64,000 nt of DNA. It comes from Rugalucina vietnamica (taxonomy: Eukaryota > Mollusca > Bivalvia > Lucinida > Lucinidae). Under the pieces are notes generated by a model that was not told the origin of the DNA, ran no database searches, and saw only the letters and a list, made by a program, of their open reading frames with translations. Below are positions 1,571 through 30,667 of the stretch, in pieces (position 1 is the first letter of the stretch; the number at the start of each line of letters is the position of its first letter). The position numbers and the translations under genes were made by a program. Location: assembly GCA_964017185.1 (NCBI GenBank), contig OZ024870.1, positions 56,050,312-56,114,311 of the forward strand, written 5' to 3'.

Positions 1571-3726
1571 AGAGGACCATTGGTCCTGTAGCTCACCTGA
1601 GAGATTATCACATTGTAAGCTCATGAGATTTAAATTAATTGAGAATCGACCAATGAAAGTCTATGCATGGACACTATTGACCCCCGGGGCATGGCCAAAT
1701 TTGACCCAGGGGCATGACTGGCACAATTTATAATGGGGTCTACCAGACATTGCTACATACAAAATATAGAAGCACTGGGCCTTTTGGTTTCAGAGAAGAA
1801 GATTTTTGTTAGTTTTTCCCATTGTAAGTCTATAGAGACTATCTACCCCCGGGGCGTGGCCAAATTTGACCCCAGGGGCATGGCTGGCACAATTTATGTA
1901 GAGGACCATTAGCCATTGCCACATACAAAATATCAAAGCTGTGTGCCCTGTGGTTTCAGAGAAGAAGATTTTTGAATTTTTTCCCATAGCAAGTCTATTG
2001 AGACTATCAACCTCCGCGGCCTGGCCAAATTTGACCCCAGGGGCGTGAATGGCACAATTATGTAGTGGACCATTAGCCATTGCTACATACCAAATATCAA
2101 AGCTGTGGGCCTAGTGGTTTCAGAGAAGAAGATTTTTTAATTTTTTTCCCATAGTAAGTCTATGGAGACTATCAACCCCCGGGGTGTGGCCAAATTTGAC
2201 CCCAGGGGCATGAATGGCACAATTTATGTAGAGGACCATTAGCCATTGCTACATACCAAATATCAAAGCTGTGGGCCTAGTGGTTTCAGAGAAGAAGATT
2301 TTTTTAGTTTTTCCTATTGTAGGTCTATGGAGACTATCGACCCCCGGGGCCTGGCCAAAATTGACCCCGGGGACATGATTGGCACAATTTATGTAGAGGA
2401 CCATTAGCCATTGCCACATACAAAATATCAAAGCTGTGGGCCCTGTGGTTTCAGAGAAGAAGATTTTTTAATTTTTTTCCCATAGTAAGTCTATGGAGAC
2501 TATCAACCCCCCGGGTGTGGCCAAATTTGACCCCAGGGGCATGAATGGCACAATTTATGTAGAGGACCATTAGCCATTGCTACATACCAAATATCAAAGC
2601 TGTTGGCCTATGGTTTCAGAGAAGAAGATTTTTTTAGTTTTTTTCCTATTGTAGGTCTATGGAGACTATCGACCCCCGGGGCGTGGCCAAATTTGACCCC
2701 AGGGGCATGAATGGCACAATTTATGTAGAGGACCATTAGCCATTGCTACATATCAAATATCAAAGCTGTTGGCCTAGTGGTTTCAGAGAAGAAGATTTTT
2801 TTAGTTTTTTTTCTATTGTAGGTCTATGGAGACTATCGACCCCCGGGGCGTGGCCAAATTTGACCCCAGGGGCATGATTGGCACAATTTATGTAGAGGAC
2901 CATTAGCCACTGCCACCTACAAAATATCAAAGCTGTGGGCCCTGTGGTTTCAGAGATGATTTTTTATTTTTTTTTCCCATAGTATGTATATGGAGACTAT
3001 CAACCCCCGGGGCGTGGCCAAATTTGACCCCAGGGGCATGAATGACACAATTTATGTAGAGGACTATTAGCCATTGCTACATACCAAATATCAAAGCTGT
3101 GGGCCTAGTGGTTTCAGAGAAGAAGATTTTTTTAGTTTTTCCAATTGTAAGTCTATGGAAACTATCCACCCCCGGGGCGTGGCCAAATTTGACCCCAGGG
3201 GCATGGCTGGCACAATTTATGTAGAGGACCATTAGCCATTGCCACATACCAAATATCAAAGCTGTGGGCCCTGTGGTTTCAGAGAAGAAGATTTTTTAAT
3301 TTTTTTCCCATAGTAAGTCTATGGAGACTATCGACACCCCGGGGCGTGGCCAAATTTGACCCCAGGGGCAAGAATGGCACAATTTATGTAGAGGACCATT
3401 AGCCATCGCTACATACCAAATATCAAAGCTGTGGGCCTAGTGGTTTCAGAGAAGAAGATTTTTTTAGTTTTTCCCATTGTAAGTCTATGGGACCTATCTG
3501 TTGCCATGGAAACCACAATTTTGATACAATCTGCTCCAAAACCTAATGCCATCAATCCCCCTACCCAATTATGGTTCACGTTAAATTTGATCAAGATCGG
3601 CCTACTAGCTTCAGAAATATTCTTCTTTGAAATTGTGGACGGACGACGGACGGACGACGGACGGACGACGACGGATGCCTGCCTATCCTTTAAGCTCACC
3701 TGTGAGCCTTCGGCTCAGGTGAGCTA
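1571..3726 (+). mobile_element. gacgg-tail element R2, complete, with 165-bp internal array
   Basis: Opens with the palindrome AGGACCATTGGTCCT, then TAGCTCACCTGAG; closes with a gacgg tail and a hairpin ending in the inverted copy CTCAGGTGAGCTA. About ten internal units of 164-167 bp, each with ACCATTAGCCATTGC and GGTTTCAGAGAAGAAGATTT, run from about 1905 to 3490. No transposase is encoded. The open frames on both strands repeat with the unit and are not genes. Confidence 0.85.
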
Positions 3727-3949: not shown

Positions 3950-4110
3950 CTGACATCATGAGAGTGCGTAAACAGGCTGGGAGTGTCACCTCACATGCCT
4001 GCCCCCGCTCACCGACAAGTAGTGCCATCTCCTGGAGCAACAGCTCACCAACACTTCTCTCACAATACTGGGCGTTGTCATAGATACACTGCTTGGTTTC
4101 TGCTATCAAA
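3950..4110 (-). CDS. Gene 1 exon 19: module 15 end, last exon in window
   Basis: 161 nt, phase 2 to 1, residues 1200-1253. TKQC and AQYC are C4 and C5, GQAC is C6, and LPAC starts another module. The donor TCAG|gtatgt is in phase 1 and no stop codon precedes it. Nothing between it and base 1 looks like the next exon, because that interval is nearly all repeats; the gene must continue to the left. Confidence 0.87.
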
Positions 4111-7100
4111 CTGAGGGAAAAGAAAGTGTTTTTCATTTTTATTGCTTTACAAATTCATCATTTCTCATGAGTTGCTTGGTTTCATGACAGCTTTTGACAT
4201 ACAGCAAACATCTATTGAATATCTCCAAAGTTCTTTTCATTGTATACTATTGATTTACATCATGGCAATTATGAAAACAAAATTTTTTGACTGACGTTTC
4301 TATTTGAGTTAAATCATGATAGACTGGTAAATGGTATATTTCATGAACAGTAAACCATATGCAGTCTTATTAACCTGAATACCCCAAAAAACTGAAGTCA
4401 GCGTGACAACTTACACACAAAGATCATCATAGTCATACTGCAAGCTGTGGTAGAGATCAGAGAGGCACTGCCGAGCCTTGCACTCCTCGCAGTACATCTG
4501 AGGGCACTGGTTTCCTAGGCGAGCATTTAAACGAAGTAATTGTCGACTCACAATGGCTGCTGTGTTCATATCACAGCCACTGGAATGACGTTGGATACAG
4601 GCTTTCATGGCTGGAATCATGCTGAAATTGATATATATGGATATAGTACTTAATCTCTAGAGAAGTTGAACTTAACACTAAAAGGGTAATTAATTTCTCT
4701 TACAAAAATTTAAGCTTTCAATCTAGTTTAAAAAAATGTGTTGTGAATAAATCAAACATTAATCTGATGACTCAGACTGTTTGAGTCAAACTATCCCAAG
4801 AAATTATGTCACAATTCATCCATTACATACCCACAAACCTCTCCCACTGACGTTGTTTGTGGGTGCACCATTTTAGCTCTGACCGGAACCATACATGTCA
4901 GTATTTCCTCTAAATCACATCTCATTATCTCCCCTGTTGCTAGACAACCCTGGGACTCAGCCTCTGGTTCCCGGCTACATCTCTGTTGTACAATGCTGGA
5001 TAGTGTTGAGAAAGTTCCCAGAATATCATTCCTGGTATTATAGTCGCAACTGCTAGTCCTCTCATCCACACATACTGAGGTGGTCAACAGTTGTCTGGCA
5101 ACAAAAAGAGATCAGATTTTGTAAGTCATCTTTGTTTTCATGTCTTTGAACTGACTTTTGAATCTTTTGAAGCAAACATTTTAGTCAAATTCAAGAAAGT
5201 CACAATATATAAAGTGCTTTCATTACTGCCATGGCAAATTTGGGTCATATGATTACTCAAATGCTTTCTTCCGCTTGTTGTTATGACTTGTATTACTTGA
5301 AAATTAACATTAATTTCATTTTGCTCTTTAATTGTTGCCTTGAAATTTCATCTCTTTCTACAATTCAAAATATGGGAAATCAGTACCAAACTACCAAATG
5401 AGACAACTTACGAGCATACAACTTTATCTTCAGTGGAACCAGTCAACAGTGTGGTTCCCAGCTCATTAATACAAAATAGAGCAAATGCTGGGTCACAGTC
5501 CCTGGTCACATGACTGTCATGGCTACACACTCCTGTAGACTGCAGTCTCTCTGACAGCCACTGAGAATTGGTGAGCATTGCCCTTTCCAGAGAGTTGGTA
5601 CAACCCGCAACTTGAGCCTGCACACAGTCAAATAGTCGATTGAATCTGAAATATATTCACAATAAATAAGAAGTGAACTGAGCCCCGTCAAAATTAGTGA
5701 CTGATGTATGAGCCCCATCGTGAGAAAACCGGAATTTCACCTATGCAAAAACAAAGGTGCAGACCAGCTTCGCAGTAACTGCGAAGCTGATCAACACCTT
5801 TGTTTTTGCCACTCAGATAGTAGAATTTCTCTTCTTCCTAAATCCTTAATTCCAAGCTTTCAACCATTTTCTGAGATTGCACAGACCGGTTTATGTTTGA
5901 CCTGGTCGGAAACCCGAAGACTGGCTTTCTCGCGTCACGACTCATGTATCTACCATGGGATTCAGTCTTAGCCTTATTATTATCTACCTGTACTTAATGG
6001 TAAGCCTCCGAACCTCAGACTTCTTCATCTATTAGGCTCCTATTTCAACTTATTATGCTATGCATTGCACATGGACACAGATGGATAATGAGTTGCCTGC
6101 ATTTGCTTGTCCGAACTTTGCAGCATTTTGTTTTTGTCTCCCTGTGACTCAACCAAGTATGCTTTCTTGATCGTAGTCATGTTTGCTTGTTTGTTTTTGT
6201 TTGACAGGGTTCCCACAAATCATAAAAAGTAAAATTCCCTGACTTTTCACTGACTTTTCAATGACCAAATTCCAAAATTCCCTGACCAAAATAAGCAGCA
6301 TTTCTCCACTATTTCTGAAGTTCATCGGTACTAAAATTCCAACCAGAGGACCAATGGTCCTGTAAACGCTCACCTGAGATCTGCTGCATATACCAATAAA
6401 CATGTATGAATATTATGGTATTTTATTCCAGTGCAGGGGCAGATGAAGCCCTTGGGCCATTTTCTTTTTTCTGAATCTTCAATATTCTGTCCATTTGCCA
6501 ATTTCCTGCTGGCTTTTCCCTTCAAATGACATTTTAACAGTTTTCCCAATTCAAATGCATAGGCAACCCATGTTGACCTTGCCATAAACTTGGTCAATGT
6601 CATCACAGGGTCCTGATTTATATATACATTTAAGTACTTTAGCCATCGATGCTTCATGCCAAGTTTCCTTGAAATCAGTCTATTGGTTTCAGAGAAGAAG
6701 GTTTTAGATGGGTTTTTACCATATATGGGCATGGCGGCCATCTTTGTCATGTGACCTAGATTATTTATATACACATTGATTCACCCTTTCTATAGATGCT
6801 TCACAAAAAATTTGGCTTTGATTGGCCAAGCGGTTTCAGAGGAGAAGACGTTTGAATATTATGGAAATATACATGTATATTGCCGCGGGGTGGGGGCACA
6901 TGAGCCCCTGGGGTCCAATTTTTTTTCAGAATCATTAATATTCAGTCCTACTTCCCATTTCCTGCAAGACTTTCACTTTAAATTACATTTTAAAAGTTTT
7001 CCCCATTCCAATGCATTGGTGACCTATGTTGACCTTGCCGTAAAATAGGTCAAGGTCATCACAGGGTCATGATTTATATACACATTGTAGTGCTTGAGCC

Positions 7101-10100
7101 ATCAATGCTTCTTGCCAAGTTTTGTTGAAATCGATCCACCGGTTCTGGAGAAGAAGATTTTTGAAGGGTTTTACCATATATGGGCATGGCGGCCATCTTG
7201 GTCATGTGACCTGGATTATTTATATACACATTGGTTCCCCCTTCCCATAGATGCTTCATGTAAAATTTGGCTTTGATTGGCCAAGCGGTTTCAGAGAAGA
7301 AGATGTTTGAATATTATGATAATATACATGTATATTGCCCCGGGGTGAGGGCGGATGAGCCCCTGGTGCCCAATTTTTTTCAGAATCATTAATATTCAGT
7401 CCTACTGCTCATTTTCTGCAAGATTTTTCCTTTAAATGACAATTTAACAATTTTTCCCATTCAAATGCAAAGGCGACCTATGTTGACCTTGCCGTAAAAT
7501 AGGTCAAGGTCACCGCAAGGTCATGATTTATATATACATTGTAGTGCTTGAGTCATCGATGCTTCATGCCAAGTTTGGTTGAAATCGGTCCAGTGGTTCC
7601 GGAGAAGAAGATTTTTGAAGGGTTTTTACCATATATGGGCATGGCGGCCATCTTGGTCATGTGACCTGGATTATTTATATACACATTGGTTCCCCCTTCC
7701 CATAGATGCTTCATGTAAAATTTGGCTTTGATTGGCCAAGCGGTTTCAGAGAAGAAGATCTTTGAAAATTGTGGACGACGGACGGACGGACGGACGACGG
7801 ACGACGGACGGACGACGGACGGACGACGGAGCATGGGTATACTATAAGCTCACCTTGTGAGCCTGACGGCTCAGGTGAGCTAAAAAAGGTGAGAAATAGC
7901 CCCGTAAATACACATTAGGTAAGAATCCTTATCTAGAGCACTCAATAATGCCACTGATATGGCTTCATGAATAGCATAGCTCACCTAAAAGTTGGAAATC
8001 ATTAGATTTAAAACAGTAATTATCATCACTAAAAAATATGGTCTGACTTTTGTTTCTAAAATTCCCTGATTTTTCCCTGACTTTTGCCAAAATTTCAAAT
8101 TTCCCTGACCAAAAACAAAATTCCCTGACTTTTCCCTGACCTTGAACTTTTTTGATTATTGGTTTTCCCATGAGGTGGCTCAATTGACAAATGCTCTTCT
8201 TGAACCAGCGGAAGAGGGAGAAAAGCTTAAGTTACTTACATTTGACAAAGATTCTCCTGACGTTCTGTCAGTGGCACCATAACATAGGACACAGAGATAT
8301 CAGTGAGAGATCTCAAACACAGCTGACCCTGGTTTGATAGGCAATTATCACCACGGGCTGAAATAGATTTATTTTGGTACTCATGCAACCTTTTACACTT
8401 ACATATTTCAGACAGAAAACCATGTATAATCTAAACATTTTGTTCATATCTTAAACTTAAAGACATGTGCACAAAATCTACAAGTATCTTTCACAAAGGT
8501 TTTTAACTGTAAATATGAGCCGCATCTTGAGAAAATCTGACATTTTGCATATGATTTGTGAAAACAAATGCGTAGATCAGCTTTGCAGTAACTGCGAAGC
8601 TGATCAGCGCCTTTGTTTTTGCTACACGGATAGCACAATAATTTGTTTGTTTCCAGGCTTTAGCCATCTTCTGTGCCTGTACAGCTCGATTTGTGTCCAA
8701 CTTGTTCAGAAACCTCATTATTGGTTTTCTCAAGACACATATTTTGGGCAAAAATTTTCTCCACATCACAATCCTCATGACTGTCAGTAAAAGCAGCATC
8801 TTTGATATTCATGAGTGAGATTAGGGCGTAAATATGTCAGAGGTAAACTTACCTGTATCACTAAAACCATCGTCCACAATAAATGTTTCTCCATCTGAAA
8901 ATAAAAATATTTGAAAGGAAATTGAATATATACATAGATTCTTAATTGTATCTTCATGTTCTTGATTACATATGTCTAAATTTAAAATAGGTCGTCATGC
9001 CCTAAGTGTAAATGACCCCCCCCCCCCCCCCCCCCCCCCCCCACAAATGGAACGCCATGAGCTGCTTTCTCTTACAGAATTCAGAATTTCAGATCTTTTT
9101 TTTTTTATTTGTTCCAACGAATTTTCACAATTGTAGCCAATGCTTCCTGGGTAGTAACAGTACCATATGGGGACTTAACGTGCCTCGCTCAAATGAACTG
9201 TAAAACAAGTAGGATCTTAACAGTATTAACACTCACCTGTCATCTGACAATCCAGATACCATCTCTTCTGCCACAGAAGTGCATTCCTGCCCAGAATTCC
9301 TCTCCACAACACAGGCAGCCCTGATTGGTCAACCGATGTGACACACTGCACAAACTGACCAATGGCATTGCAGAGACCAGACCTTGTGACATCAGTTGCC
9401 ATGGAGATGATCTGCTGACACTGGTTTATGTTGTAATGAATCTGCTGAACTGAGGGAGGGTCCTCTGGGATAAAGTTACTAGGGTAACCAAGAATAAGGT
9501 CACACTGCAAGCCATTGTTTGTGATAGTCTGCATCATGAAAGACTTTGCCAGAGTGTACTGTAGTGGATCACAGCCACATAGTTTTTCTTGAATACAGTT
9601 TTGGGTTTCCGTTAAGTTGCTGAAAGCAAAATTTAATGTGTACAATCATTTGACGAATCCCTTTCAGTATTGAAAGTAAGAATAGAGGGACCAGGAATCG
9701 ATGCAATTAAATTTAAAGTCCCAAGATAGACGGTGGCAAAGAAAATACATAAAGCACAACATAACATTTTCCGACAACACACTCAAAGAGCAGAATGACT
9801 AGCTCTTTCCCAACAAGGTAGCCATCCGGCTAAGTTTCAACAGGAACGAAAGGGAATGAGCACAACAGAGAGGTAGGCACAATAAACTGTAGTATAATGA
9901 AGATAAACCACTTTTCCTGTGACACTGATTATCGTTTTAACTGGGAACAAGCATGATGAAGACAAACCTCTCTATCTGGGACACAACTTAACGTTTTTAG
10001 TGGGCACAACGCCGAAAACCACTTCTCCTGGGGACGTCCTCAAATTCATAAAGAAAGAAATTTAATGAACTTAAAAACCAGTAACTGATCTGTTTTGAAA

Positions 10101-13100
10101 ATTTTACAATATGAAGCCATTTGAAACTGAATAAGCCATATTAAAAGAAGATGAATTAAGACATATTATGCAAAATACTAAATACAGTTAATATGGATCA
10201 CACCCCATTCATCACATATCATGACTTTGTTTGTTTTGTGGTTTTCAGACAATGTTAGGATGGAGCCACAGGTTCACCTGTACGTATCTTGCTCAAGGAC
10301 ACAACCTGGCACTAGTGGGGATTGAACCCCCACCCTCTAGATTGGGAGTTAGACATTATAATTACAAGTTTTGCCATGTATCCTGTATTTAATGGTGCTA
10401 ATAAGCATACTTACAAACAGAAAGCATATCCTGTGTATGCAACACAAGATGACCAGTCTAAGGAACATGGTTTTGGACTGGTACACATCTGTTCCACCAC
10501 AACTGACTGGTTCTCTGTGCTATCACACCATGACTTCAGAGGACAAGTCAGATTACCCAGCATGCTCTGAATGGCCTTGACCTCTGATAGCAGGTGACTT
10601 TCAACAGAACTGTCACAGCCTTCAAGGTTGTCATATATACACTGGTATGCCTCGTCAAGTTCACTACAAGAAAGACATGATTTTAAGGTAAAATCTGAGA
10701 AAACATCAATCCTTTAAATTTTCTGGCAGAGACTGAGCATGTCAAGGACAATTACTATGCAAGGTTTCACATTCACAGCTACCTTAGGTGTAGAGAAAAT
10801 AAAACTTTGACATAAAAATTAATAAAGTTGATGGACTGTGAAATATAGGTCAAGGGCAACAGGTCAAGGTGTTTGCTTGCTTTATGGTACTATGAGAAAA
10901 AAAAAATTGTTTGCTAGGCATTCGCCAAGGCGCAGTTTTCTTACAGTTTCTCTTTATGGTTCTATGAGAAAAGAAGAAAAAAAATCGTTTGCCAGGCATC
11001 GCCAAGGTTCTGTTTTCTAACAGTTTTTCTTTATGGTACTATGAGATGAAGTAATATTACGTATTTTCCGGCAGTAAAAAAGTTAAAAATCATCTTTTCT
11101 AATATAAAGCATAATTTGTGTATGAATCGTGTCGGCTGCCTAAATAGCTTGTGTATTCACAAGTGATAATTGTCATTTTTAGACAACACAGTTTAATGCT
11201 AGCAAAGCGTGAATGACACATTGTTTTCTTAAGATTAGTGACAAAAGCTGTGAAAATAAGGCAAGCGATGCACAATAACTTGCTAGGGGATTATCGACAG
11301 ACCATAACGTGACCATAAACAAAGGTTGCTGAAGGCTATTAATGACACATGTTACGCAACGTTGCTCGATGTTTTCGTTCAGTGATTTCTGAAGTCCAAA
11401 AATTGGGACGCCTAAATCTTGTATTAATCTACCTTTTTCGATAATGTACTTCTTCCTTTGTGCTTGAGAACGGCGCATTGTAAATACGGTATCGTTATTG
11501 TAAAGGTAAAACACCACAAGCAAAAGTGATTCAAGTCCGGGTGCGCCGAAAAGTCAACGGCGGAGCTCTACGAAACAACAAAAAAATATTCTATTCTATT
11601 CTAACAACACGCAGAGTTATCCTTCTTACAAAAATGGCGGTCGATCATCCATAAAACATCGCGTCACATGCAAAATATACATGAACAATGATTTTACTCA
11701 ATAGAAATCAGTGGAAACCTTGGAAATCAACCGACCTTTACGTTTTCTCACATCGATTGGCATTTGTATGCAGTTTGAAGCTCATTATCAATCATTTTAG
11801 CTATTGTCATGGGTTTTCGCGACCGACAAATTTTACAAAAAGAAGTCTGAAATTTGGTGTTCTTATACAAAATGCGCACCAAATTTTGTACTCCACAATC
11901 TGAGCAAAAAAAGTGCGTGTTATACGCATGTGAATACGGTACCATGCAATGTTTCACACTAGCAGGTATCACTGATGCAGAGAAAACCAAACTTCGACAT
12001 AAGAATTAACAAAGTCAATGGACCTTGAAATAAAGGTCAGGGGCACAGGGTCTAGATGCGTGCTTGAAGGGTATGTCAAGAACAATTACTATGCAAGGTT
12101 TCACACTCAGGGCTATCACTGATGCAGAGAAAACCAAACTTTTATGTAACTGACGTAAAAACAACAAAGAATGGACTGTGAAATATAGGTCAAGGGCACT
12201 GGGTCAAGGTGCGTGCTTGAAGGGTATGTCAAGGACAATTACAATGCAAGGTTTCACACTCACGGCTATCACTGATGCAGAGAAAAGCAAACTTCGTCGT
12301 AAAAATTAGCAAAGTCAATGGACCGTGAAATATAGGTCAAGGGCACTGGGTCAAGGTGCGTGTTTGAAGAGTATGTCAAGGACAATAACTATGCAAGGTT
12401 TGAGACTTGCAGCTATCACTAACTTAGAGAAAATGAAACTTCGACGTAAATGTTGACGGACAGACGGACGGAAATTTGGACTCCTATATCACACCCTGCT
12501 TTAAACAGGTGCGATAAAAATCTGGTGTGTAAAATTATATGAACTTGAAAGGATTCGTAATATTTCAAACATGCACATTGCATATTGGCCCTTTAATGAC
12601 CACTTTTTGGCAGATCTGTCAACGCTCAACACCATGTTTTTTCAGAACTTAGTGATGACAACATAATTCTATGATGTGCTAATAAATTGAAAGATGATAA
12701 ATATACCATACCCACAAGCGCTTTCAGAAGCAGAGGCAAAATTGAGGAATGATCCAAAATTTTCTAGACACTGTTCAATCTTATTGATATCACATGACTT
12801 TGGCATTTCTAGGTAGCTCTTCTCACACTGGAGATTGTGAACCTCAGACAAGAACGTGTAGGTCTGCTCAAAAATCTGCTTTCTCTGAGCCGAGCATCCA
12901 GAAACGTCGAGAGGTATGTTTAACAGAATACTGAAACACAAAGCACACTTTTAATAACAATAAAATAACATGTCGAGGTAATAAGGCTTAAGCAGCAACC
13001 ATAAAATTTAATCATTTGGCATGATGCGATAGATCCTGGACTTATTTTCTGAAATTTTCATTTTTGTTATAGTGAAATGAACTGTAAATAGGAAAAACAA

Positions 13101-19100: not shown

Positions 19101-22100
19101 TAAAGAATATAACAGTGTTTGTAATTGTCATTAAGAATAATGAAAGCAAATATTTACTGTCAATTGTCTCCTTTTACAATTCATTAAACCATACTGCAAA
19201 ACAATTTAAACAAACATTGAATCCCTGCTGCACTGCTCTAAAAGGACATCTATATGAGAAAACCAACATTTTGCAGATGTGAAAACAAAAGCGCAGATCA
19301 GCTTCGCAGTAACTGTGAAGCTAATCAGCGCCTTTGTTTTCGCTACACAGATAATACAATTCCTCTACTTTCTAGATCCAAATTTTCCAGCATCTAGCCA
19401 TCTCCTATGCTTGTACAGCTTTGTGTCGAACCTATTCGGAAACAAAATTGTTGGTTTTATCATAATGTGGCTCAAAATGCATTTCAGCATAATGTTTTAA
19501 CCAACTTACCCACATACAATGGGGGATTGTGGTACTATGGCCAGTGTGAAATCCAGTGATTCCATGACATCTTGAAGACATTGACCTGCAATGTCAAGGT
19601 CACAGCCGCCATGGTGACAAACTAGGTCAGAGGTCAACTTTATCTCATCGGTTACCAAGGCAACCAGGTATCTGGGGATCCCCGAGCAGGAGTCTAGAGG
19701 CTCTTCTAAACATTGTAATGTCACCTCTGCTTGCCTGTAAATAATAAAAAGAATAACATTGAAAATATGTGATAATCTGCAACCTCCCCCCCCCCCCCCC
19801 CCACATGGACTGAGTACATGTATTATAGTTTTGTGTTATTGTTTTGCAGATTGAATTGTTGACATGGTTTGAAAAGAAATGAGCCGCCTCATGGGAAAAC
19901 CAACAATGTGGTTTCCGAACAGGTCCGACACAAACCGGCCTGTACAGTCACAGAAGCAGGCTCCCTTGCGAAAATTAAACTCGGCTCTATATAAAAGCTG
20001 CAGAAAAGCCGGCTTTTCCGCAGCTTTTCTGCGTTTCTTTTTTAAAGCTGTAGAAAAGGCGCGTTTCTATTTTAGACCTGCGTTTTAGCTGCGTTTTTTT
20101 TCAGTGAGCTGCGGAAAAGCCGTACTGTTTTTAAGTGAGCTGCGTTGAAGCTGTATATTTAATTTGGATATCTGAAAAAGCTGCGTCTTTAGGTATAGAA
20201 GCTGTAGAAAAGCTGGATATTAATTTTTTTTCAAAACAGGTTAAACCTACAGCTCTTGAAAGCTGCAGAAAAGCTGTGTATTAGTGAAATTTCAAATCAG
20301 ACTATTGAAAAACATTAAGACGCAGCTTTTCTACAGCTTTTTGAAGCCGCGTATTAAACTTTTCAATAAAGCTTCTGTATACAGCTCTACTTGAAAGCTT
20401 TGTAAAAGCTGGCTTTTCTCCAGCTTTTCTGCATTTACAAATAGGGGCTGTAGAAAAACTTTACTTTTTTAACTTAAGGTGCAGAAAAGGTGTCTCTTTT
20501 TCAAATAGCTGTGTTTCTTCATTTATTAACTGTAGAAAAGCTGGATAATTCCTGATCTTTCAAATTAGAAATAATTTGAGCTGAAAATGAATAATACGCA
20601 GCTTTTACGCAGAGCTGCGTATTTCTTCAACCATAGTCAGGTCTTATGTAAAATTAAGCAGTTTTATCTTGTTGCTATGGCAATTTTACCTGAGGGGGGG
20701 CATCTGGCAAAGAAATCTGTTTCAAAAACACTTTCGAGTGTCATTTATAGGCTGACAAGTATTAGCTTGAAATTTCGGAATTAAGTAGAAGAGGAACTGT
20801 ACTATCCGAGTAGCGAAAACAAAGGTGCTGATCAGCTTCCCAGTTACTGCGAAGCTGATCTGCGCCTTTGGTTTCGCATATGCAGATTGTTGGTTTTCCC
20901 ATGAGGCAGCTCAAATGTCTTAACTGAGAAAAGCATGCAATTCTTTGCAAGTTCTGTGTTTATTTCTTTTTTTGTTTAATTTTTTACAGTTCCTCAAAGA
21001 AATTTTCAAGTTTGGCTGCTTGTGTTAAAAAGCCATTGTGTAAATAAACTGGTTTATAATCTAGATTCCTGAACCTGAATATTGCATTTACATAAAAAGC
21101 CATGGTGTTAGTGGACCTGAATTTTCACATCCAAAATGAAAAAAAAAAAGTCTCAACAGAGCTGATTAGCATGTTATTTGATAGTACAATCCCTCTACTT
21201 CCAACCACCTAAAACACTTCAACTATCTTTCAGATGTAAAGCCCAGTTTATGTCGAACTCGGTAAGACATGCTGGAGATTCTTTTTTAACATGGCTCAAA
21301 TTATATGACCATATGAGCCACCACATGGGAAAACCAACAATATGCATAGGCGAAAACAAAGGCGCAGATCAGCTTCGCTACTCGGATAGTACAATTCCTC
21401 TTCTACCTAAATCCGAAATTTCAAGCTTCTAGCTCTTTTCTGTGCTTGTACAGGTCGGTTTGTGTCGGACCTGTTCGGAAACCACATTGTTGGTTTTCCC
21501 ACGAGGCGGCTCATATGTAAGTGTTCCTATTCAGTATTAAAGCAAACATCCGAACAAATGGCTGGGCGTTGAACCCAAATAATAACCCTGTCTTATGTAA
21601 ATCCTTTCATTACAAAAACTTGCCCATGCAATATACAGAGATTTTTATCAGCTGTAAAAATCGAAAGAATTCATCAGAAAAAGTTTGATTTTTTTTTTTC
21701 ATATTTTTGCTCAAAACATGTTTTGGAACAAAAATAAGAAAAAAGGTATACCCTTCTACATCTCAGTTTTACTATATAAAAGTGGGGTTTAAGGGGGTAT
21801 ACATCTCCTGGACATGTTATCCTGAAGAACAGAATTATTGAAAAGAACAATGGGGTTACTCCCTTGCACTAAAGCTCAGAAAACAAAAACAGCCAGGAAA
21901 ATGAGTCAATTTTTACTTCCACAATGCCTCTGCAAAACAAAATTGTACATAATATCGAAAATTAACATCCTTTTTCCAATTTAAGCTGTGCCTTCATTCA
22001 TAGTTGTGGGTAAGTATGCAGGAAACAATAGTTTGTCCAAAATGACTTAAAAAGTGTTGATTAGGACATCATGATCAGGCCTCAACCAAAACAAATCCAT

Positions 22101-25100
22101 GCTGTATTATGGCCTAGGCCCAAAAATGCATATTTTGAGTCGCCTCATGGGAAAACCAACAATCTGCATATGCGAAAACAAAGGCGCAGATCAGCTTCGC
22201 GGTAACCGCGAAGCTGATCAGCACCTTTGTTTTCACTACATGGATAGTACAATCCCTCTACTTCCTAAATACGAAATTTCGTACTTCTAGCCGTCTTCTG
22301 CTACTGTGCAGTCCGGTTTGTGTCAGACCTGGTCGGAAACCACAACGTTGGTTTTCCCACCAGACGGCTCATTTTATACTAAGGGGATTTGTTGGACTAG
22401 AACTCAGTTCCTGCTGCTCCCCTGTATTTGGTAGAATGATTACAAATGAGCCATCTCGTGGGAAAACCAACAATGTGGTTTCCGAACAGGTCTGACTCAA
22501 ACCGAGCTGTACAAGCACAAAAGATGGCTGGAGACTGGAAATTTTGGATTTAGAAAGTAGATCCATGTAGAGAAAACAAAGGCGCTGATCAGCTTCGCAG
22601 TTACTGCGAAGCTGTAACTGCGAAGCTGATCTGCGCCTTTGTTTTCGCCTATGCAGATTCTTGGTTTTCCCATGGGGTGGCTCAATGACAGATGCAAACT
22701 GAAACTAACCTGCATATTGGTCCAAGCTGGCCATGTGACAAAATTTGTCCAAAATGAAGAAGACATTTCTCTGCACCTTCAAATTCACAGTCTACAGTTT
22801 CCACCCCTGCAAAAAAGAGATTCTTTTTATGCATTCAGTTTTGTTACATCTATTCTAATACAAATTAATGAGATGCTGCATAAGAATACCAATAATATCG
22901 TTGGTCCGATAACAAATTCTTGTATCTCAACTTTTGGTAGGAATGCTTTTTTACACTGTGGGAATGCTAACTATACAGCACACAATCTATCAAAATAGAT
23001 AGATTGGCCATTTGGAGGCCAAGTTATCATCATGTGCTCAAACCTTGTATCTCATTTTTTTTTTTTTTTTTTGAAATCATGTCATTTATACGAAAAAGAC
23101 GCATCTCCAGACTTGAAAATTTTGAAGAAAGCGGTTACTCAAACTGCTGAGATAAGTGAACACTGTTACTGAATATGTATTCTTTTTATGTATATAATAC
23201 AATTTCCTCACAGGTGTGCACTGAAACAGAGGCTACCATGCCAAAGGTTCAAACTGCTTCCAAGAAAGGTCTAAAATTAACAAATGAGCCAGAATCCCTA
23301 TAGATGACCTTATCCCATTGAATAGGCATCACAGAAATCAACACTCAATGATCAGATGATATTTCAGATACATACATGTGATACCTCCCTCAAGGAGACT
23401 CCAGGAAATGAGCTGTGTAAATTGCTCTAATATTTTATCTTACAGTCAAACCACATTGACTAGTTTACCTACATGCAGCTGGCCGGCATCAGCAGCTAGC
23501 CTCGCTCTGATTTTATGTAAATGCAATTTTAAAAAGACAAGAAGCAAGCGGTTATGCACTAGTCATTTGTAACCACAGCCCCCTCCCCCAGGGGGAAAGT
23601 GGGGACTTTGACTTTTGGTGCAGCAAATCCCCACTAAAAACCAAATAGTGCGGGGACTGCTTGTTGGTAAAACCACTGCTGTTTTCCCCCACAGCCTGCT
23701 AACTAGAATGTCTGTGAGGGCGAATGGCAGTATATAGAGATAGATCTTTTCATTTCAAAGCCCTTCTTGCTACTTAAAGTAAACCTGTGGTATTTTCCCC
23801 GCACTGTCATGGCAAAAGTTTGCCTCACTTGTGCATTCTAGGGACTAATTTCTCCCCCACCCGAACCCCTATGATTTTATGTGACTTTTATGTGACTTCC
23901 TAGTGGGGGGGGGGGGAGATACAAATGACTAGTGCATTAAGTTCCTTGGCTTTTGAAAGTCTGAATTCAAAGACTACTGTAAAACGGAGTGTACAATGTA
24001 CACCTCCCAAGAATAATCAGAAACTGATTGATGGGAGTAACAAGAAAACAAACCAAACAAAACCAAAACAAACCCCTAGCTGCCTAGCTGGGGTCAAAAA
24101 ACATTAAATAAACCAATAGGAAAGTTAAAAATGCAGTATAGTCAACATTGTCCAGCGCAATAACATTTGCCTAGAAAGTGATGACTAGCTAAAGTAATAA
24201 AATGCAGACCAACTAGCAAAACAGGCACTGGTCAGCCTTATTTTTTTCTTCCCATTTCGCGCGCTTTGTCAAATTAATCAAAGAGGGCTACCAAGGGCGG
24301 CTACTCTTCGTCATACTATTCTACTTCCCGGTATCTTAGCTGACACTGGCTATCCGCACGACGGTCGTGCCAAACTCCAAGCCGCGGTGTTCCACTTTCG
24401 GACGAAAGTCCTCTCTATGGTGTACTCGAAGGGTCAAAATGGCCGAAGTGGTTAACCGATCGGTCCATGCCTATTTCAAAATAGACATGCACCCGCAAAT
24501 ATAGGGGTGCACCCGCATATTTAGAGGTTCACCCCTATTTTAAGATAGAGGTTAGCCCCTAAAATGCAAGTACATGCCTATTATAGGGGTGCATGCCTAT
24601 TTTAGGGGTTAACCTCTACTTTACGGGTGCACCTCTAAAATTACGGGTACACCCCTAAAATAGGCATGCACCGCTATTTAGGGGTTAACCTCTATTTAGG
24701 GGTGCACCCGCATATTTGCAGGTGCATGTCTAAATATAGGGGTTAACCCGCAACCCGTCTGAATCTGAATCTGGATGGTTTACTGACTTTACTGGTGATA
24801 CACCAAATTGACAATACTTCACCAGGGGGTGTACCAGGAGGAAAATTAGTCCCTGGCTCTCACAAGAGATGCGAACTTGGACACACAGTCATCAGACATT
24901 TCAGAAGAGATCAGAGAATCCGAGAATCCGGGAGGTCATTCCAGTCCCTGATAGTCTGTGGAAAGAAACTACTTTTTGTACGCTTCTTTGCTAGCTGAAG
25001 GTATCTGAAAAGCCAAAGAGTGTTGCTTTCTACAATGCCTATTCTTCGGGATAAGGTCATCTGTGGGTATTCTGGCTTTCCCCTTTAGACCTTTGTATAG

Positions 25101-28100: not shown

Positions 28101-29740
28101 ATTTCAGTAGAGAAAATCAGGGAACCAGGGAGGTCACATGACAGCCTCTGATAGTCCGATGGAAAACCTTATGTAAAATGCATTTGTACTCTAGGTGTGC
28201 TGGAAGATATATGACGCCGTCGTGTTGATTTATGTTAATATCCAACCTTCTTTTCTTCGGGGGTTACCAGTCTAATTCTGGGCATAATGCAGCTGGCTAA
28301 CAAAACGGCTAATAAAACCAAGACTTCTTACGAACTGGAAGTGCAATGTTGAAAGCAAATTCATCAGAGTAACAGAAAAGAAGGACTAAAATTGAGTGCA
28401 TATCAGAAGCGTTTGTTCTAAGGCTATAAACAATATTGAATTCTTGAGAGAAATAAAATATGATGGTTTGATCATTTGGTTTAAACAATATTTATTCGTT
28501 TAATTCTGCACATATAATATACATGTTTTATGGTACAGGATTTGATAAAAAGCTATAAGCTTATAGACATAATCTCCTGTTTGATCATTTGGAAGCAATA
28601 AAAACATTCAGATAGTATGGACTATATTGCGAAAGTCTACTTTCTTGGCCCTTTCTTGTGAGAGAAAGCTGTCTATAAAGATCAAGTATGCGTAAGCCTC
28701 ACTCCTGAGTATTTTATTATTATATGAGGGTCATACTGATGGATTAGGAATAGCGCAAATTATGCGTACATCTTCGTAACAAGAAATTTAGCACACCTTT
28801 CAAGAATCGGTTCCATCGGTTCCAATCTTACTATAAGTAAAATCTCAAACTCATACATACACAAATGTTTACACCAACTGAAGTTCTAAACTGAATGGAA
28901 ATACAAATTGTTCTTTTTATAATAGTTGACGAAGCTTTTTTTCTTGATGGATAAAAATTAAAACTGAGATCCTTTAAGAGCAGTGAACACATTAATGAGA
29001 AAGGGGATGGGCCATACCGCGGTTTCGACTATTAAAGTCTCGTCAGTGACCCTTTACATTTGGCAAGATGGAGCCAAAGAGAATTACTTAAAATTTTGCA
29101 ATTTTCAACAGGGTAGTCTATACAAAGACTAGTATTATCTAAATGGGACCAAATTTGCTAAACATTGGTTAGAAAATGAATCTTAACCGTATCTCGTCAC
29201 TAGCGAATACCATTCGCTCAAACTTCATACCTTGTTCACAAGCCTTGGAGAAAATGTTCTGGAGCACATTGATATAGGGCCGAGCAAGTGATGCTGTCAC
29301 GTGTCCTAGATGATCTTCGCAGGTGTTTAAATATTGGTCTGTACATTTCACATATGCCTCAAACGAGTTGGCTCTGTAAATCGAAGAAAAATATCAAACA
29401 CAGTATCAAAACAGGATGCGAAAAGGGCGACACAGAAAAAAAAAGCATCGCAAAAAAATCATAAGTTAATGTAAATGACAGAATATCAGTGCAACCTGAA
29501 TCATTTGCAAGAATGTACATTAATTAATCGACTTTTATTAGAGGCCTGTCGATAATACCACAGGTTTCTTGCATACGTTTTCGTCAAACGAATCCTAAAG
29601 ATTATCGCGTGTTTTACCTCTATTTTGACTGTTTAGGTTTTTAATGATTTGATTGTATGAAAACGAATGTGAATGTAGTTTGACAGTGCAATTACTGGGC
29701 TTCCATCTTACCTCAAATAACATGAAACTTTGTTTTAAAT

Positions 29741-29779
<39 letters not shown>

Positions 29780-30667
29780 AAAAGTAAAAAAAATAAAAAG
29801 TTCAAAAGAGAGTATGTGAATATATATGTATTGATCTGATAAATTCTAAAATCGAAGTTCTAGGTAACATTTTATCTACAACTGTTGTAAGAAGGTGTAC
29901 CTGCATATTGTGGTATTCCCATGTATGGCTTCTAAGGTTGAACTGAATGTTTGTATAAAACAGTGGCGAAATTCTGGAAGATCACATATATCTGGTTCAG
30001 CTGAAAGAAAACCCGCGCAAAATGTTATATTTATTACAGTAGGTTTTCAGTTATATTACGAAGAGTGAAACCCTTCTTAACGACATAGGGAGATTGAGAT
30101 ATCAAGCTACGTCCACGTTCAAATGGTCAATTATGTGGAGTTATGGAGCAGAAGCCTCCGCGGTGTAGTGGTCAAGACCCTTGCCTTGTATACCAGGGGT
30201 TGTGGGTTCGATCCCGGGTTTCTCCAATCTTTCAGATGAGACTATAAATCGTACAAGACAAACTGGTGACAAGGACATACTGTGACGAGACTGGAGACTA
30301 TATATGCTGTACCTAATGGGTGGCATCTGCTGGTCCCAGTGCATTTCATAGCGTCATTCATTACTAGCATTTTTCTATTTTCGGACACTGTGCGTCAAAT
30401 AACCGGGACGCACAGCCTTCTGTCTACATTTATATTGTATTCTGTTCTAGTTTTCTTGTCAGCACCTTATTTATAACTTTCGTTTGTTTACCGCTTTCTT
30501 CAATAATGTCCATTTGATTGTCATTTGTTTTCTATCTGTGTTTAAATTGATATGTTGTTTTATGTACGTCGAAGAAATCTTAAAGGAAAATACTTACGCA
30601 AGTTTTCAGTTCTGGAATAAACAGTTTTAACTATCATATAAACAAGGGCAATTATAATCCGATTCAT
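3950..30667 (-). CDS. Secreted multi-module cysteine-rich protein, 19 exons, C-terminus beyond left edge
   Basis: Joined minus-strand exons (5' to 3'): 30667-30598, 30000-29901, 29373-29231, 22806-22710, 19734-19510, 16855-16622, 16278-15994, 15294-15064, 14561-14176, 13494-13383, 12930-12712, 10663-10415, 9619-9237, 8894-8853, 8357-8240, 5645-5412, 5094-4831, 4621-4415, 4110-3950. All have AG acceptors and GT donors, and each phase matches the next, giving one open frame of about 1,253 residues. After a signal peptide there are 15 modules of the form C1-x7-C2-x(8-25)-C3-x(8-10)-C4-x(6-7)-C5-x(20-25)-C6. N-glycosylation sequons (for example NTT, NHT, NKT, NRT, NLT) and the lack of an internal membrane segment point to an extracellular protein. 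The family is not recognised. The cysteine rhythm is loosely like nematode T20D4.11/DUF19 domains, but this was not tested. The frame is still open with a good donor at 3950, so more exons lie to the left. Confidence 0.88.
4415..4621 (-). CDS. Gene 1 exon 18: module 14 end and module 15 start
   Basis: 207 nt, phase 2 to 2, residues 1131-1199. C4 (MKAC), C5 (SSGC), C6 (NQC), then a cysteine-dense turn (MYCEEC-KARQ-C) and C3 in DDLC. The C1-C2 spacing is shortened here. Acceptor aatttcag, donor GTGT|gtaag. Confidence 0.9.
4831..5094 (-). CDS. Gene 1 exon 17: module 13 end and module 14 start
   Basis: 264 nt, phase 2 to 2, residues 1043-1130. C4 (TSVC), C5 (TSSC), C6 (QQRC), an extra cysteine (QGC), then C-DLEEILT-C and C3 in GEVC. 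Acceptor ttgttgccag, donor gtatgt. Confidence 0.9.
5412..5645 (-). CDS. Gene 1 exon 16: module 12 end and module 13 start
   Basis: 234 nt, phase 2 to 2, residues 965-1042. C4 (LFDC), C5 (VAGC), C6 (TGVC), then C-DPAFALF-C and C3 in KVVC. Acceptor atatttcag, donor gtaagt. The P-family copy at 5710 starts 65 bases upstream of the acceptor. Confidence 0.9.
5710..5943 (+). mobile_element. P-family palindromic MITE
   Basis: Full-length copy, GAGCC...GACTC, inner hairpin cagcttcgcagtaactgcga. Flanked on both sides by ATGTAT, an apparent target duplication. In the intron between exons 15 and 16 of gene 1. Confidence 0.85.
6200..8165. mobile_element. Repeat of attccctgactttt type, split by element R3
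   Basis: Both flanks of R3 (6210-6340 and 8040-8150) carry iterations of ATTCCCTGACTTTTCCCTGA, which suggests one older element cut by the later insertion. Its own ends are not clear. Confidence 0.5.
6345..7882 (+). mobile_element. gacgg-tail element R3
   Basis: Starts AGAGGACCAATGGTCCTG, ends with the gacgg tail (7770-7832) and CTCAGGTGAGCTA. The interior has two-plus units of about 430-440 bp with GGGCATGGCGGCCATCTT and GGTCAAGGTCA. Inserted in an older repeat. Confidence 0.85.
8240..8357 (-). CDS. Gene 1 exon 15: first half of module 12
   Basis: 118 nt, phase 1 to 2, residues 926-964. Reads RGDNC-LSNQGQL-C with C3 at ENLC; here the intron falls two residues after C3 rather than one. Acceptor atttcag, donor gtaagt. 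RGD occurs at residues 927-929, directly after the acidic microexon; whether it binds integrins cannot be judged. Confidence 0.85.
8517..8742 (+). mobile_element. P-family palindromic MITE, diverged right end
   Basis: GAGCCGCATC start and inner hairpin gcagtaactgcgaagctgat. The right terminus is eroded. Lies between the 14-codon exon and exon 15 of gene 1. Confidence 0.75.
8853..8894 (-). CDS. Gene 1 exon 14: 42-nt linker microexon
   Basis: 42 nt, phase 1 to 1, encoding DGETFIVDDGFSDT: acidic and without cysteine. Acceptor ttttcag, donor CAG|gtaagt, both strong. Being a multiple of three with the same phase at both ends, it could be skipped without breaking the frame. It separates modules 11 and 12. 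Confidence 0.8.
9237..9619 (-). CDS. Gene 1 exon 13: module 10 end and intron-less module 11
   Basis: 383 nt, phase 2 to 1, residues 784-911. C4 (TQNC), C5 (CGC with an extra cysteine) and C6 (LQC) finish module 10. After a proline-containing linker, module 11 lies wholly inside the exon: one cysteine of the first pair (NQC), C3 (SGLC), one of the second pair (FVQC), and C6 (YLDC). Like exon 9 it lacks the intron seen after C3 elsewhere and ends in phase 1. Confidence 0.9.
10220..10350 (-). repeat. tRNA-derived SINE fragment
   Basis: The minus strand reads GGGGGTTCAATCCCCACTAG, a pol III B-box-like string, followed by TCCTTGAGCAAGA as in the SINE at 63771. The 5' head is not clear. Confidence 0.45.
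10415..10663 (-). CDS. Gene 1 exon 12: module 9 end and module 10 start
   Basis: 249 nt, phase 2 to 2, residues 701-783. AYQC and LEGC are C4 and C5, LTC is C6 with an NLT sequon. Extra cysteines (KSWC, EQMC) precede C-SLDWSS-C and the short run to C3 (YAFC). Acceptor cttgtag, donor gtaagt. The plus-strand open frames over this interval are shadows. Confidence 0.88.
10735..12516 (-). mobile_element. gcacctgc-end repeat (U family), interrupted
   Basis: Units with GAAATATAGGTCAAGGGCA and TGTCAAGGACAATTAC at 10740-10885 and 11950-12470, closing with gacggacgg and GGACTCCTATATCACACC, then CAGGTGCGAT. Roughly 10890-11950 is foreign DNA: a 73-bp duplication (10890-11045) and an unidentified segment (11050-11950). 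Inverted relative to the copy at 40499. Confidence 0.6.
12712..12930 (-). CDS. Gene 1 exon 11: module 8 end and module 9 start
   Basis: 219 nt, phase 2 to 2, residues 628-700. The module 8 half has one cysteine in the C4/C5 region (VSGC) and C6 (LQC). The module 9 half is regular: C-DINKIEQ-C, then C3 in ESAC. An extra cysteine (C-EKSYLEMPKS-C) precedes C1. Confidence 0.9.
13142..13364. mobile_element. MITE with TTAACYCAT ends
   Basis: Left TTAACCCATATTTGAC, right AAATGAGTTAA, with an inner inverted pair (CAGCCCCAGATGGGACG / GTCACATCTGGGGCT). A second copy is at 51227-51458 and a partial one near 43135. Confidence 0.75.
13383..13494 (-). CDS. Gene 1 exon 10: first half of module 8
   Basis: 112 nt, phase 1 to 2, residues 591-627. 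Contains only C1 (NEDC) and C3 (QILC); C2 is missing. The acceptor (atttcag) lies only 9 bases from the end of a P-family MITE, so the pyrimidine-rich stretch used for splicing is transposon sequence. Confidence 0.87.
13504..13737 (+). mobile_element. P-family palindromic MITE abutting exon 10
   Basis: Full-length; flanked by ATAT on both sides. It ends 9 bases from the exon 10 acceptor, so its terminal repeat supplies the minus-strand ttggttttctc tract. Confidence 0.85.
14176..14561 (-). CDS. Gene 1 exon 9: module 6 end, all of module 7 and a linker
   Basis: 386 nt, phase 2 to 1, residues 462-590. C4 (IFQC), C5 (TEGC), C6 (HDC) close module 6. Module 7 then lies in one exon, with no intron after its C3 (SLVC). 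It has one cysteine in the first pair (VSAC), one in the second pair (YESC), and C6 (QSQC). Two sequons (NKT, NRT). The donor GAAG|gtatg is in phase 1. Confidence 0.88.
15064..15294 (-). CDS. Gene 1 exon 8: module 5 end and module 6 start
   Basis: 231 nt, phase 2 to 2, residues 385-461. C4 (MIAC), C5 (LDGC), C6 (AHC), then an extra cysteine before C1 and C2 (C-DVMQAYVV-C) and C3 in ETAC. Its acceptor, tttccag, abuts a minisatellite whose units each contain a copy of the same splice-site-like string. Confidence 0.9.
15295..15597 (-). repeat. Minisatellite, 53-bp unit, duplicating the exon 8 acceptor
   Basis: About six units containing CATGCGCAAGGCATTGAATA, all touching the exon 8 acceptor. 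On the minus strand each unit has a pyrimidine-poor tttccag followed by AC, like the real exon junction. One unit lacks about ten bases. The mutual near-identity suggests recent expansion. Confidence 0.9.
15994..16278 (-). CDS. Gene 1 exon 7: degenerate module 4 end and module 5 start
   Basis: 285 nt, phase 2 to 2, residues 290-384. It opens MYQTTLM and has no C4 or C5; the first cysteine is C6 in NDFC. Normal C1-x7-C2 (C-DVAEAER-C) and C3 (ENIC) follow. Three donors are possible: TGCAG|gttgtt (chosen; keeps phase 2 and the C3-plus-one-residue junction), AGGTT|gttaca (also phase 2), and CAA|gtagat (breaks the frame). Confidence 0.82.
16622..16855 (-). CDS. Gene 1 exon 6: module 3 end and degenerate module 4 start
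   Basis: 234 nt, phase 2 to 2, residues 212-289. The first half is normal (LACVTNHTMEC with a sequon, then DNC as C6). The second half, for module 4, has no C1 or C2: about 38 residues without cysteine run to C3 in EQLC. The matching losses are in exon 7. Confidence 0.88.
17089..18774 (+). mobile_element. gacgg-tail element R4
   Basis: AGAGGACCATTGGTCCTGAG start, gacgg tail at 18672-18720, CTCAGGTGAGCTA end. Interior units of roughly 480 bp each carry GGGCGTGGC and TGACCTTGACCT / AGGTCAAGGTCATC. Lies in the intron between exons 5 and 6 of gene 1. Confidence 0.85.
18811..19035 (+). mobile_element. P-family palindromic MITE
   Basis: GAGCCGCAACGCGAG start, ACACGGCTC end, inner hairpin cagcttcgcagatactgcga. 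Directly follows R4. Confidence 0.8.
19254..19473 (+). mobile_element. P-family palindromic MITE
   Basis: Left terminus eroded to GAGAAAACCAACA; right end GTGGCTCA. Inner arms cttcgcagt / actgtgaag no longer match perfectly. Confidence 0.75.
19510..19734 (-). CDS. Gene 1 exon 5: module 2 end and module 3 start
   Basis: 225 nt, phase 2 to 2, residues 137-211. Begins QAEVTLQC (C4), C5 at PLDSC, C6 at DLVC, then C1-x7-C2 (C-DLDIAGQ-C) and C3 in PIVC. Acceptor ttatttacag, donor gtaag. It is a symmetric exon: second half of one module plus first half of the next, the standard building block of this gene. Confidence 0.9.
19881..20912. mobile_element. P-family MITE split by an 800-bp AGCTG-rich insert
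   Basis: The MITE's left part is 19881-19962 (GAGCCGCC... to GCAGGCT); its right part resumes at 20763 (AGCTTGAAATTTCGG) and ends GGCAGCTC. Between them, 19966-20757 is packed with AGCTGYRGAAAAGCTG-like strings on both strands. Confidence 0.75.
19966..20757. repeat. Degenerate iterated motif patch (AGCTGCAGAAAAGCTG)
   Basis: About 790 bp in which GCTGCAGAAAAGC, GCAGCTTTTCTGC and variants recur in both orientations at irregular spacing, separated by T- or A-rich runs. There is no regular period, so it is not an ordinary tandem array. Confidence 0.6.
21315..21512 (+). mobile_element. P-family palindromic MITE, inner hairpin deleted on one arm
   Basis: GAGCCACCACATGGGAAAAC start, GAGGCGGCTC end, flanked by ATAT. 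The sequence jumps from gatcagcttcg straight to ctactcgg, losing the second inner arm. Confidence 0.8.
21595..21830. mobile_element. Short copy of the TIR element found in the LINE
   Basis: Left end CATTACAAAAACTTGCCCAT and right end GTGGGGTTTAAGGGGGTATA match the two ends of the insertion at 25309-26258, with only about 170 bp between them. Confidence 0.5.
22137..22370 (+). mobile_element. P-family palindromic MITE
   Basis: Inner arms cttcgcggt / aaccgcgaag pair perfectly, differing from the common gcagt/actgc version on both sides. Flanked by ATTTT. Confidence 0.85.
22448..22683 (+). mobile_element. P-family palindromic MITE next to exon 4
   Basis: GAGCCATCTCGTGGGAAAAC to GGGGTGGCTC. Contains a short duplication of one inner arm (gcgaagctgtaactgcgaag). 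Ends 26 bases from the exon 4 donor of gene 1. Confidence 0.85.
22710..22806 (-). CDS. Gene 1 exon 4: small exon, first half of module 2
   Basis: 97 nt, phase 1 to 2, residues 105-136, acceptor ttttttgcag, donor TGCAG|gttagt. It reads VETVDC-EFEGAEK-C and ends GPIC, which is the module signature with C1-x7-C2-L and C3. It is the only piece I found between exons 3 and 5 that repairs the frame. A P-family MITE ends 26 bases into the downstream intron. The exons on either side are 6.4 kb and 3 kb away. Confidence 0.8.
23555..23936. mobile_element. MITE with TGCACTAGTCATTTGTA termini
   Basis: Inverted ends TGCACTAGTCATTTGTA / TACAAATGACTAGTGCA, flanked by TTA on both sides. A 3-bp TWA duplication is typical of PIF/Harbinger elements. 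Other copies are at 45372-46026 and 61329-61864. Confidence 0.8.
24455..24760. repeat. Degenerate iterated palindrome patch (AGGGGTTAACCYCTA)
   Basis: About 300 bp of TAGGGGTGCACCC, GGGGTTAACCYCTA, ATAGGGGT and GCATGCCTATTTTA strings, many self-complementary (GGTTAACC, GGTGCACC), in irregular order. Confidence 0.6.
25309..26258. mobile_element. TIR DNA element inserted in the LINE
   Basis: Separates LINE codons for EAAYKGL from VRSVLEYG. Inverted ends share GAAAAYNTGYCCGTGCAATA. Inside are a hairpin (25390-25510) and a roughly 270-bp direct repeat (25545-25818 and 25925-26194). No transposase seen. Confidence 0.65.
25390..25510. repeat. Long hairpin
   Basis: Arms of about 50 bp: TTGCTCCAAAACATAGATTG...CGTTAGAACCG and its complement CGGTTCTAACG...CAATCTATGTTTTGAGCAA, around a short CCTCAGCGAGA-like centre. 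One arm recurs at about 50950-50990. Confidence 0.8.
27566..27815 (+). pseudogene. LINE endonuclease-linker fragment, inverted relative to its RT
   Basis: The plus strand reads SQFVNIHSADKLSDHDIVSG, then after a stop RCQKCDYESMRTETLKFAKE and SDTLSVQENFNLI. The SDHD motif is the C-terminal catalytic signature of LINE (APE-type) endonucleases, and VQENF..I is the usual linker. The rest of the open frame to 27945 is not recognised. Confidence 0.7.
28965..29190. repeat. Third, diverged copy of the 270-bp repeat
   Basis: TTTAAGAGCAGTGAACA, ATGGAGCCAAAGAGAATTAC and TTGGTTAGAAAATGAATCT recur in the order seen at 25545 and 25925. It ends about 40 bp from exon 3 of gene 1. Confidence 0.7.
29231..29373 (-). 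CDS. Gene 1 exon 3: second half of module 1
   Basis: 143 nt, phase 2 to 1, residues 57-104. C4 and C5 (C-TDQYLNT-C) are followed by a helix-like stretch to C6 (SKAC). Its donor CAAG|gtatga is in phase 1, which does not fit exon 5 directly and led to the search that found exon 4. A diverged copy of a roughly 230-270-bp repeat (28965-29190) lies in the intron just beyond the donor. Confidence 0.85.
29742..29780. repeat. (TG)n microsatellite
   Basis: About 18 uninterrupted TG units, in the intron between exons 2 and 3 of gene 1. Confidence 0.95.
29901..30000 (-). CDS. Gene 1 exon 2: first half of module 1
   Basis: 100 nt, phase 1 to 2, residues 24-56. It carries C1, C2 and C3 (C-DLPEFRH-C, then GNTTIC with a sequon). 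The acceptor is ctttcag and the donor is TGCAG|gtacac. Too short to stand out as an ORF; identified from its cysteine spacing and exact phase fit. Confidence 0.85.
30152..30330 (+). repeat. tRNA-derived SINE
   Basis: The head AGCCTCCGCGGTGTAGTGGT (A box) and GGTTCGATCCC (B box) look like tRNA-Thr; the body has GATGAGACTATAAATCG, shared with the copies at 57424 and 58331. In intron 1 of gene 1. Confidence 0.75.
30598..30667 (-). CDS. Gene 1 exon 1: start codon and signal peptide
   Basis: Residues 1-23, starting MNRIIIALVYMIVKTVYS, a short basic start followed by a hydrophobic stretch, as in a signal peptide. Cleavage after YS near residue 18 is plausible. The ATG is at 30667-30665. An in-frame TGA lies 15 bases upstream (30682-30680), so translation cannot begin earlier in this exon. 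The exon ends with a strong donor (C|gtaagt) in phase 1. The lysine inside the hydrophobic run is slightly unusual. Confidence 0.85.

Follow-up and report, generated by a model that had tools for sequence, protein, structure and literature searches.

The window analysed here is a stretch of 64,000 nucleotides from Rugalucina vietnamica (GCA_964017185.1, OZ024870.1 56,050,312-56,114,311), which carries on its minus strand a gene of 19 exons, running from 30667 to 3950, for a string of cysteine-rich modules whose matched cysteine losses bear on how the disulfides are paired. The open frame is continuous across the 19 exons (1253 aa, 88 Cys), with introns of the GT...AG type and exon 1 beginning at an ATG. 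An earlier sequence-only reading had given the range as 3950..30000, and its 3950 end stands but the gene starts at 30667. Position 3950 is a phase 1 donor, and the gene thus continues beyond exon 19; an exon downstream of this donor was searched for and not found, so that the 3' end lies outside the model and the 15 complete modules encoded (M1–M15) are a lower bound. The N-terminal exon encodes a hydrophobic stretch, MNRIIIALVYMIVKTVYS, directly read as a putative signal peptide. The protein is a large, probably secreted animal product, secretion being what we infer from this hydrophobic N-terminus as read by eye.

A complete module has six cysteines, C1 to C6, and eight of the 88 Cys fall outside these positions. 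Spacing in the 11 six-cysteine modules is regular in part: C4-C5 is 8 residues in all 11, C3-C4 is 9 in ten and 11 in one, and C1-C2 is 8 in nine, with 16–24 residues for C2-C3 and 19–27 for C5-C6. The two remaining C1-C2 spacings are the short ones of M6 (7) and M10 (6), where labels need care. Both of these modules have an extra Cys 8–9 residues ahead of C3 (Cys453 at 15092; Cys774 at 10446). A phase-2 intron lies just past C3 in 13 of the 15 modules (one residue past in 12, two in M12), as between exons 16 and 17 (5412/5094), and M7 (14210-14452) and M11 (9238-9468) have no internal intron, each lying inside a single exon. Introns outside modules (five, plus the last donor) are all phase 1. 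Since all internal introns are phase 2 after C3 and all external ones phase 1, the C1-to-C6 unit looks like a phase 1-1 module split once after C3, and the pattern suggests that the gene grew via duplication of such units.

Cysteine losses among the modules are confined to four copies and are matched between the halves. C3 and C6 are present in 15/15 modules and all six cysteines in 11/15; M7 (exon 9), M8 (exons 10/11) and M11 (exon 13) each retain a single cysteine of C1/C2 and a single one of C4/C5, and M4 (exons 6/7) has none of the four, so that left- and right-half loss numbers are equal in every module. These are the counts that the sequence-only reading had given, and all of them were borne out on recounting. 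The exons, with the cysteines that each contributes, are as follows.

Exon 1, 30598..30667, minus strand: carries the ATG and a probable signal peptide (MNRIIIALVYMIVKTVYS...), read directly; phase 1 donor.
Exon 2, 29901..30000, minus strand: M1 half with C1-C2-C3.
Exon 3, 29231..29373, minus strand: M1 half with C4-C5-C6; phase 1 donor.
Exon 4, 22710..22806, minus strand: M2 half with C1-C2-C3.
Exon 5, 19510..19734, minus strand: M2 C4-C6 and M3 C1-C3.
Exon 6, 16622..16855, minus strand: M3 C4-C6 and M4 left half, with L262 at C1, G270 at C2 (both positions hand-placed) and C3 present.
Exon 7, 15994..16278, minus strand: M4 right half (T298 at C4, M306 at C5, C6 present) and M5 C1-C3.
Exon 8, 15064..15294, minus strand: M5 C4-C6 and M6 C1-C3 with the additional Cys453.
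Exon 9, 14176..14561, minus strand: M6 C4-C6 and the entire M7, with one of C1/C2 (C2 or C1), C4 present and Q555 at C5.
Exon 10, 13383..13494, minus strand: M8 left half, with C1 present and E603 at C2.
Exon 11, 12712..12930, minus strand: M8 right half (C4 absent, C5 present) and M9 C1-C3.
Exon 12, 10415..10663, minus strand: M9 C4-C6 and M10 C1-C3 with additional Cys747 and Cys774.
Exon 13, 9237..9619, minus strand: M10 C4-C6 (additional Cys798) and the entire M11, with Q843 at C1, G884 at C5, and C2 and C4 present.
Exon 14, 8853..8894, minus strand: short linker, phase 1 at both ends.
Exon 15, 8240..8357, minus strand: M12 C1-C3.
Exon 16, 5412..5645, minus strand: M12 C4-C6 and M13 C1-C3.
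Exon 17, 4831..5094, minus strand: M13 C4-C6 and M14 C1-C3.
Exon 18, 4415..4621, minus strand: M14 C4-C6 and M15 C1-C3.
Exon 19, 3950..4110, minus strand: M15 C4-C6 and 14 more residues including one Cys, ending at a phase 1 donor.

The identity of the survivor in each pair, a question that the sequence-only reading had left aside, was assigned by distance to C3 and C6, with reference ranges to C3 of 22–32 for C1 and 16–24 for C2, and to C6 of 19–27 for C5 and 27–35 for C4. By this measure M8 keeps C1 (32 from C3) and C5 (23 from C6); its right Cys is 13 from C3, which fits neither C4 nor C5 and implies a short deletion. M11 keeps C2 (Cys851, 16 from C3) and C4 (9 from C3, 32 from C6). The right Cys of M7 is C4 (9 from C3, 29 from C6), and its left one, Cys515, is 23 from C3 and fits C1 or C2. 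Both intron-less modules, M7 and M11, are among the three without C5 (chance 1 in 35, by arithmetic). With C1 and C5 left in M8, and C2 and C4 in M11, the crossed form C1-C5, C2-C4 fits, and the strength of this pairing rests on these two modules.

The chance estimates that follow are all optimistic, as the modules are kin and may share losses. Matching of loss numbers alone has an exact probability of 1 in 5460 when right-half losses are dealt randomly (39/200,000 shuffles). With Cys515 of M7 taken as C2, the same three modules lack C1 and C5 (hypergeometric 0.0022) and the same two lack C2 and C4 (0.0095), a full column match expected about once in 47,800; shuffling the four columns separately gave zero half-lost bonds for C1-C5/C2-C4 in 14/500,000 trials, and zero for any of the three possible pairings in 0/100,000. 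Leaving M7 out, C1/C5 and C2/C4 co-absence are each 1 in 91.

Of 30 bonds, with M7 as C2, the crossed form C1-C5/C2-C4 leaves 25 intact and 5 lost, with 0 half-lost, and both C1-C4/C2-C5 and C1-C2/C4-C5 give 22 intact, 6 half-lost and 2 lost. Without M7 the half-lost bonds number 0, 4 and 4 of 28 respectively, and with M7 as C1 they number 2, 4 and 6 of 30. On the sequence the crossed form is thus favoured over C1-C4/C2-C5, which had been the first choice of the sequence-only reading; of that proposal, support extends to a C3-C6 pair and to two bonds linking {C1,C2} to {C4,C5}, but not to the preferred partners. Parallel rungs C1-C4 and C2-C5 would likewise account for the matching loss numbers, and M7 alone would favour them, if Cys515 is C1, as in the stored alignment A1, but they leave two free cysteines in M8 and in M11 each and would require helices 1 and 2 to run parallel or to cross; we regard them as quite unlikely. 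Bonds within each half (C1-C2 and C4-C5), with the matching due to another cause, would account for the zero-cysteine M4 but, as had been foreseen, not for the three single-loss modules, each of which would be left with two free cysteines. Moreover, C1 and C2 are mostly 8 residues apart, and their positions share a helix in the M11 model described below; cysteines at that distance in one helix are too distant for an intra-helix bond, and we hold such pairing to be very improbable.

AlphaFold2 models cover M7 and M11, the two single-exon modules. The single-sequence model of M7 was poor (predicted local distance difference test, pLDDT, 62.4), and that of M11, built on an 8-row alignment, reached a pLDDT of 82.7 and a predicted template modelling score (pTM) of 0.67. 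For M11 three successive helices are predicted (7-22, 29-45 and 53-75), covering most of the domain: helix 1 holds the C1 position (9) and C2 (17), helix 2 holds C3 (33) and C4 (42), the C5 position (50) lies five residues beyond helix 2, and C6 (74) is in the last turn of helix 3. Antiparallel packing of helices 1 and 2 would leave only the nested order, C1-C5 with C2-C4, for two rungs linking them.

We propose, with a probability of roughly 0.77, that the module is an up-down-up three-helix bundle with three disulfides. In it C1-C5 and C2-C4 would form two nested rungs joining antiparallel helices 1 and 2, and C3-C6 would fasten helix 2, where it begins, to helix 3, where it ends. A rung would disappear only as a whole, because losing one of its cysteines would leave the other as a free thiol in a protein destined for secretion; C3 and C6 are retained in every copy. 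The array would then be a secreted chain of 15 or more of these bundles. What we infer here is the bonds themselves, the up-down-up arrangement and the fold of modules besides M11.

Several points weigh against this proposal. The bonds are predicted from the losses and the helix positions of the M11 model, and, as M11 has neither C1 nor C5, that model is blind to a bond between them. The predicted structure, which the sequence-only reading had suggested for comparison, yields three helices to which nested bonds come naturally, but a plain hairpin register drawn by arithmetic from the ends of the M11 helices brings C2 close to C3 and the C1 position close to C4, the latter as parallel rungs would have it; for nested bonds helix 1 would have to be shifted down by about 8 residues, a shift that the loop permits. 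Two cysteines 8 apart on an ideal helix also point 80 degrees away from a common face. Survivor calls are less clear by alignment than by spacing: in A1 the survivors fall at C1 and C5 for M8 and at C1 and C4 for M7, with those of M11 between C1/C2 and at C4. Cys515 of M7 falls at C1 in A1 and in one of four MAFFT modes and at C2 in the other three, is split among other trial alignments, and is placed at neither by a two-sequence alignment; for Cys851 of M11, one of four MAFFT modes gives C2, and the other three, like A1, set it between the columns of C1 and C2. From M8 and M11 alone, agreement in which cysteines survive has a chance of 1 in 4. Foldseek matches were weak, none having E < 0.001, and MIT domains stood above RGMB, one of the repulsive guidance molecules (RGMs) considered below (TM 0.61 vs 0.55; VIA-align Z 8.0 vs 6.6).

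Shared history is a further consideration. M7 and M11 both lack an internal intron and C5 (and also C1, if Cys515 is C2), M4 and M8 both lack C2 and C4, and the members of each pair lie four modules apart. Intron absence and C5 loss in M7 and M11 possibly stem from shared ancestry or one joint event, in which case the separate paired events may number as few as three. Between-module similarity revealed no clear four-module block duplication. That common descent, or a general decay affecting a few modules, explains the matched losses altogether, leaving pairing undecided by them, seems to us unlikely.

Elsewhere in the window, a reverse transcriptase fragment, probably from a LINE (long interspersed nuclear element)-like element, lies on the minus strand in intron 3/4 (26542-26916; RVT_1 E 1.1e-05, 25.7 vs 29.6 bits), and the nearby open frames 24972-25397, 26216-26578 and 27148-27426 had no Pfam match. 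Long tandem arrays occur at 1667-3498 (unit ~165 bases) and, within introns of the module gene, at 6465-7770 (unit ~455 bases) and 17306-18667 (unit ~465 bases). A 53-base tandem array (15292-15594) occupies the intron directly upstream of exon 8, touching its acceptor (first exon base 15294).

No family reached curated Pfam cut-offs. DUF1397 (PF07165) weakly matched M9 alone of the 15 modules (E 0.0024; 17.7 vs a cut-off of 25.7 bits) and CPG4 (PF15481) M5 alone (E 0.067; 14.2 vs 32.7 bits), and NCBIfam gave weak results only among the matches listed (best E 0.05). Orthologous modules, sought with exon 12 as query, were found in no viral contigs or plasmids. The sole match in genome contigs, a cyanobacterial one with an in-frame stop and one shared seed peptide, was rejected as chance. 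Literature searches, which were not exhaustive, showed among the titles listed none on a tandem protein of such modules.

The module may be weakly linked to the N-terminal domain of RGMs (RGMA, RGMB, RGMC/hemojuvelin). Excerpts of PMC7354924 describe that domain of RGMB as three helices with three disulfides, a three-helix bundle to compare with helices predicted in M11 only. RGMB shares the six cysteines and the same C3-x8-C4-x7-C5, and its C5-C6 spacing of 22 falls within the 19–27 seen here; it differs in C1-C2 (5 vs 6–8), RGM proteins have one such domain whereas this protein has at least 15, and 4/15 modules here depart from the RGM spacing in lacking two or four of the six cysteines. A sequence profile matched the RGMB N-terminal domain at E 0.011, and Foldseek ranked RGMB second (prob 0.80, E 1.6), RGM complexes being 8 of the best 50 of 173 matches. 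Cys-keeping shuffles of RGMB scored as high in 2/1000 (A1) and 8/1000 (A6), so that the likeness is marginal beyond cysteine spacing; profile-profile probabilities vs RGM were 5.0 and 7.5 percent, with shuffles as good in 5/100 and 4/100, and no RGM model of Pfam was listed at E up to 10 for the whole protein or any of the 15 modules (HMMER filters on). That the protein is a multivalent RGM N-terminal relative, an invertebrate string of at least 15 RGM-like bundles acting as a putative multi-ligand binder of the bone morphogenetic protein (BMP) type, some modules being tuned by rung loss, we consider decidedly unlikely. The cysteine alpha-hairpin of p8MTCP1, given in excerpts of PMC4596865 as C-9-C-10-C-9-C, resembles the proposed module in that two nested disulfides, joining one C-xn-C pair to another, staple its two helices together; the pairs here are mostly C-x7-C, and the module adds a further helix and the pair C3 and C6. 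The TWSG1 (Twisted gastrulation) N-terminal domain, compared by its description in excerpts of PMC11167000, is also a compact disulfide-rich three-helix bundle, but packs 7 disulfides into ~50 residues vs three in the module here.

Fifteen diverged copies in one gene amount to a natural experiment on disulfide pairing, in which the surviving cysteines hint at their partners without a structure. As no Pfam cut-off was reached and the NCBIfam matches listed were weak, the predicted bonds and fold offer a starting point for identifying this large protein. If the tie to the N-terminal domain of RGMs is true, it would extend a BMP-binding fold to tandem arrays.
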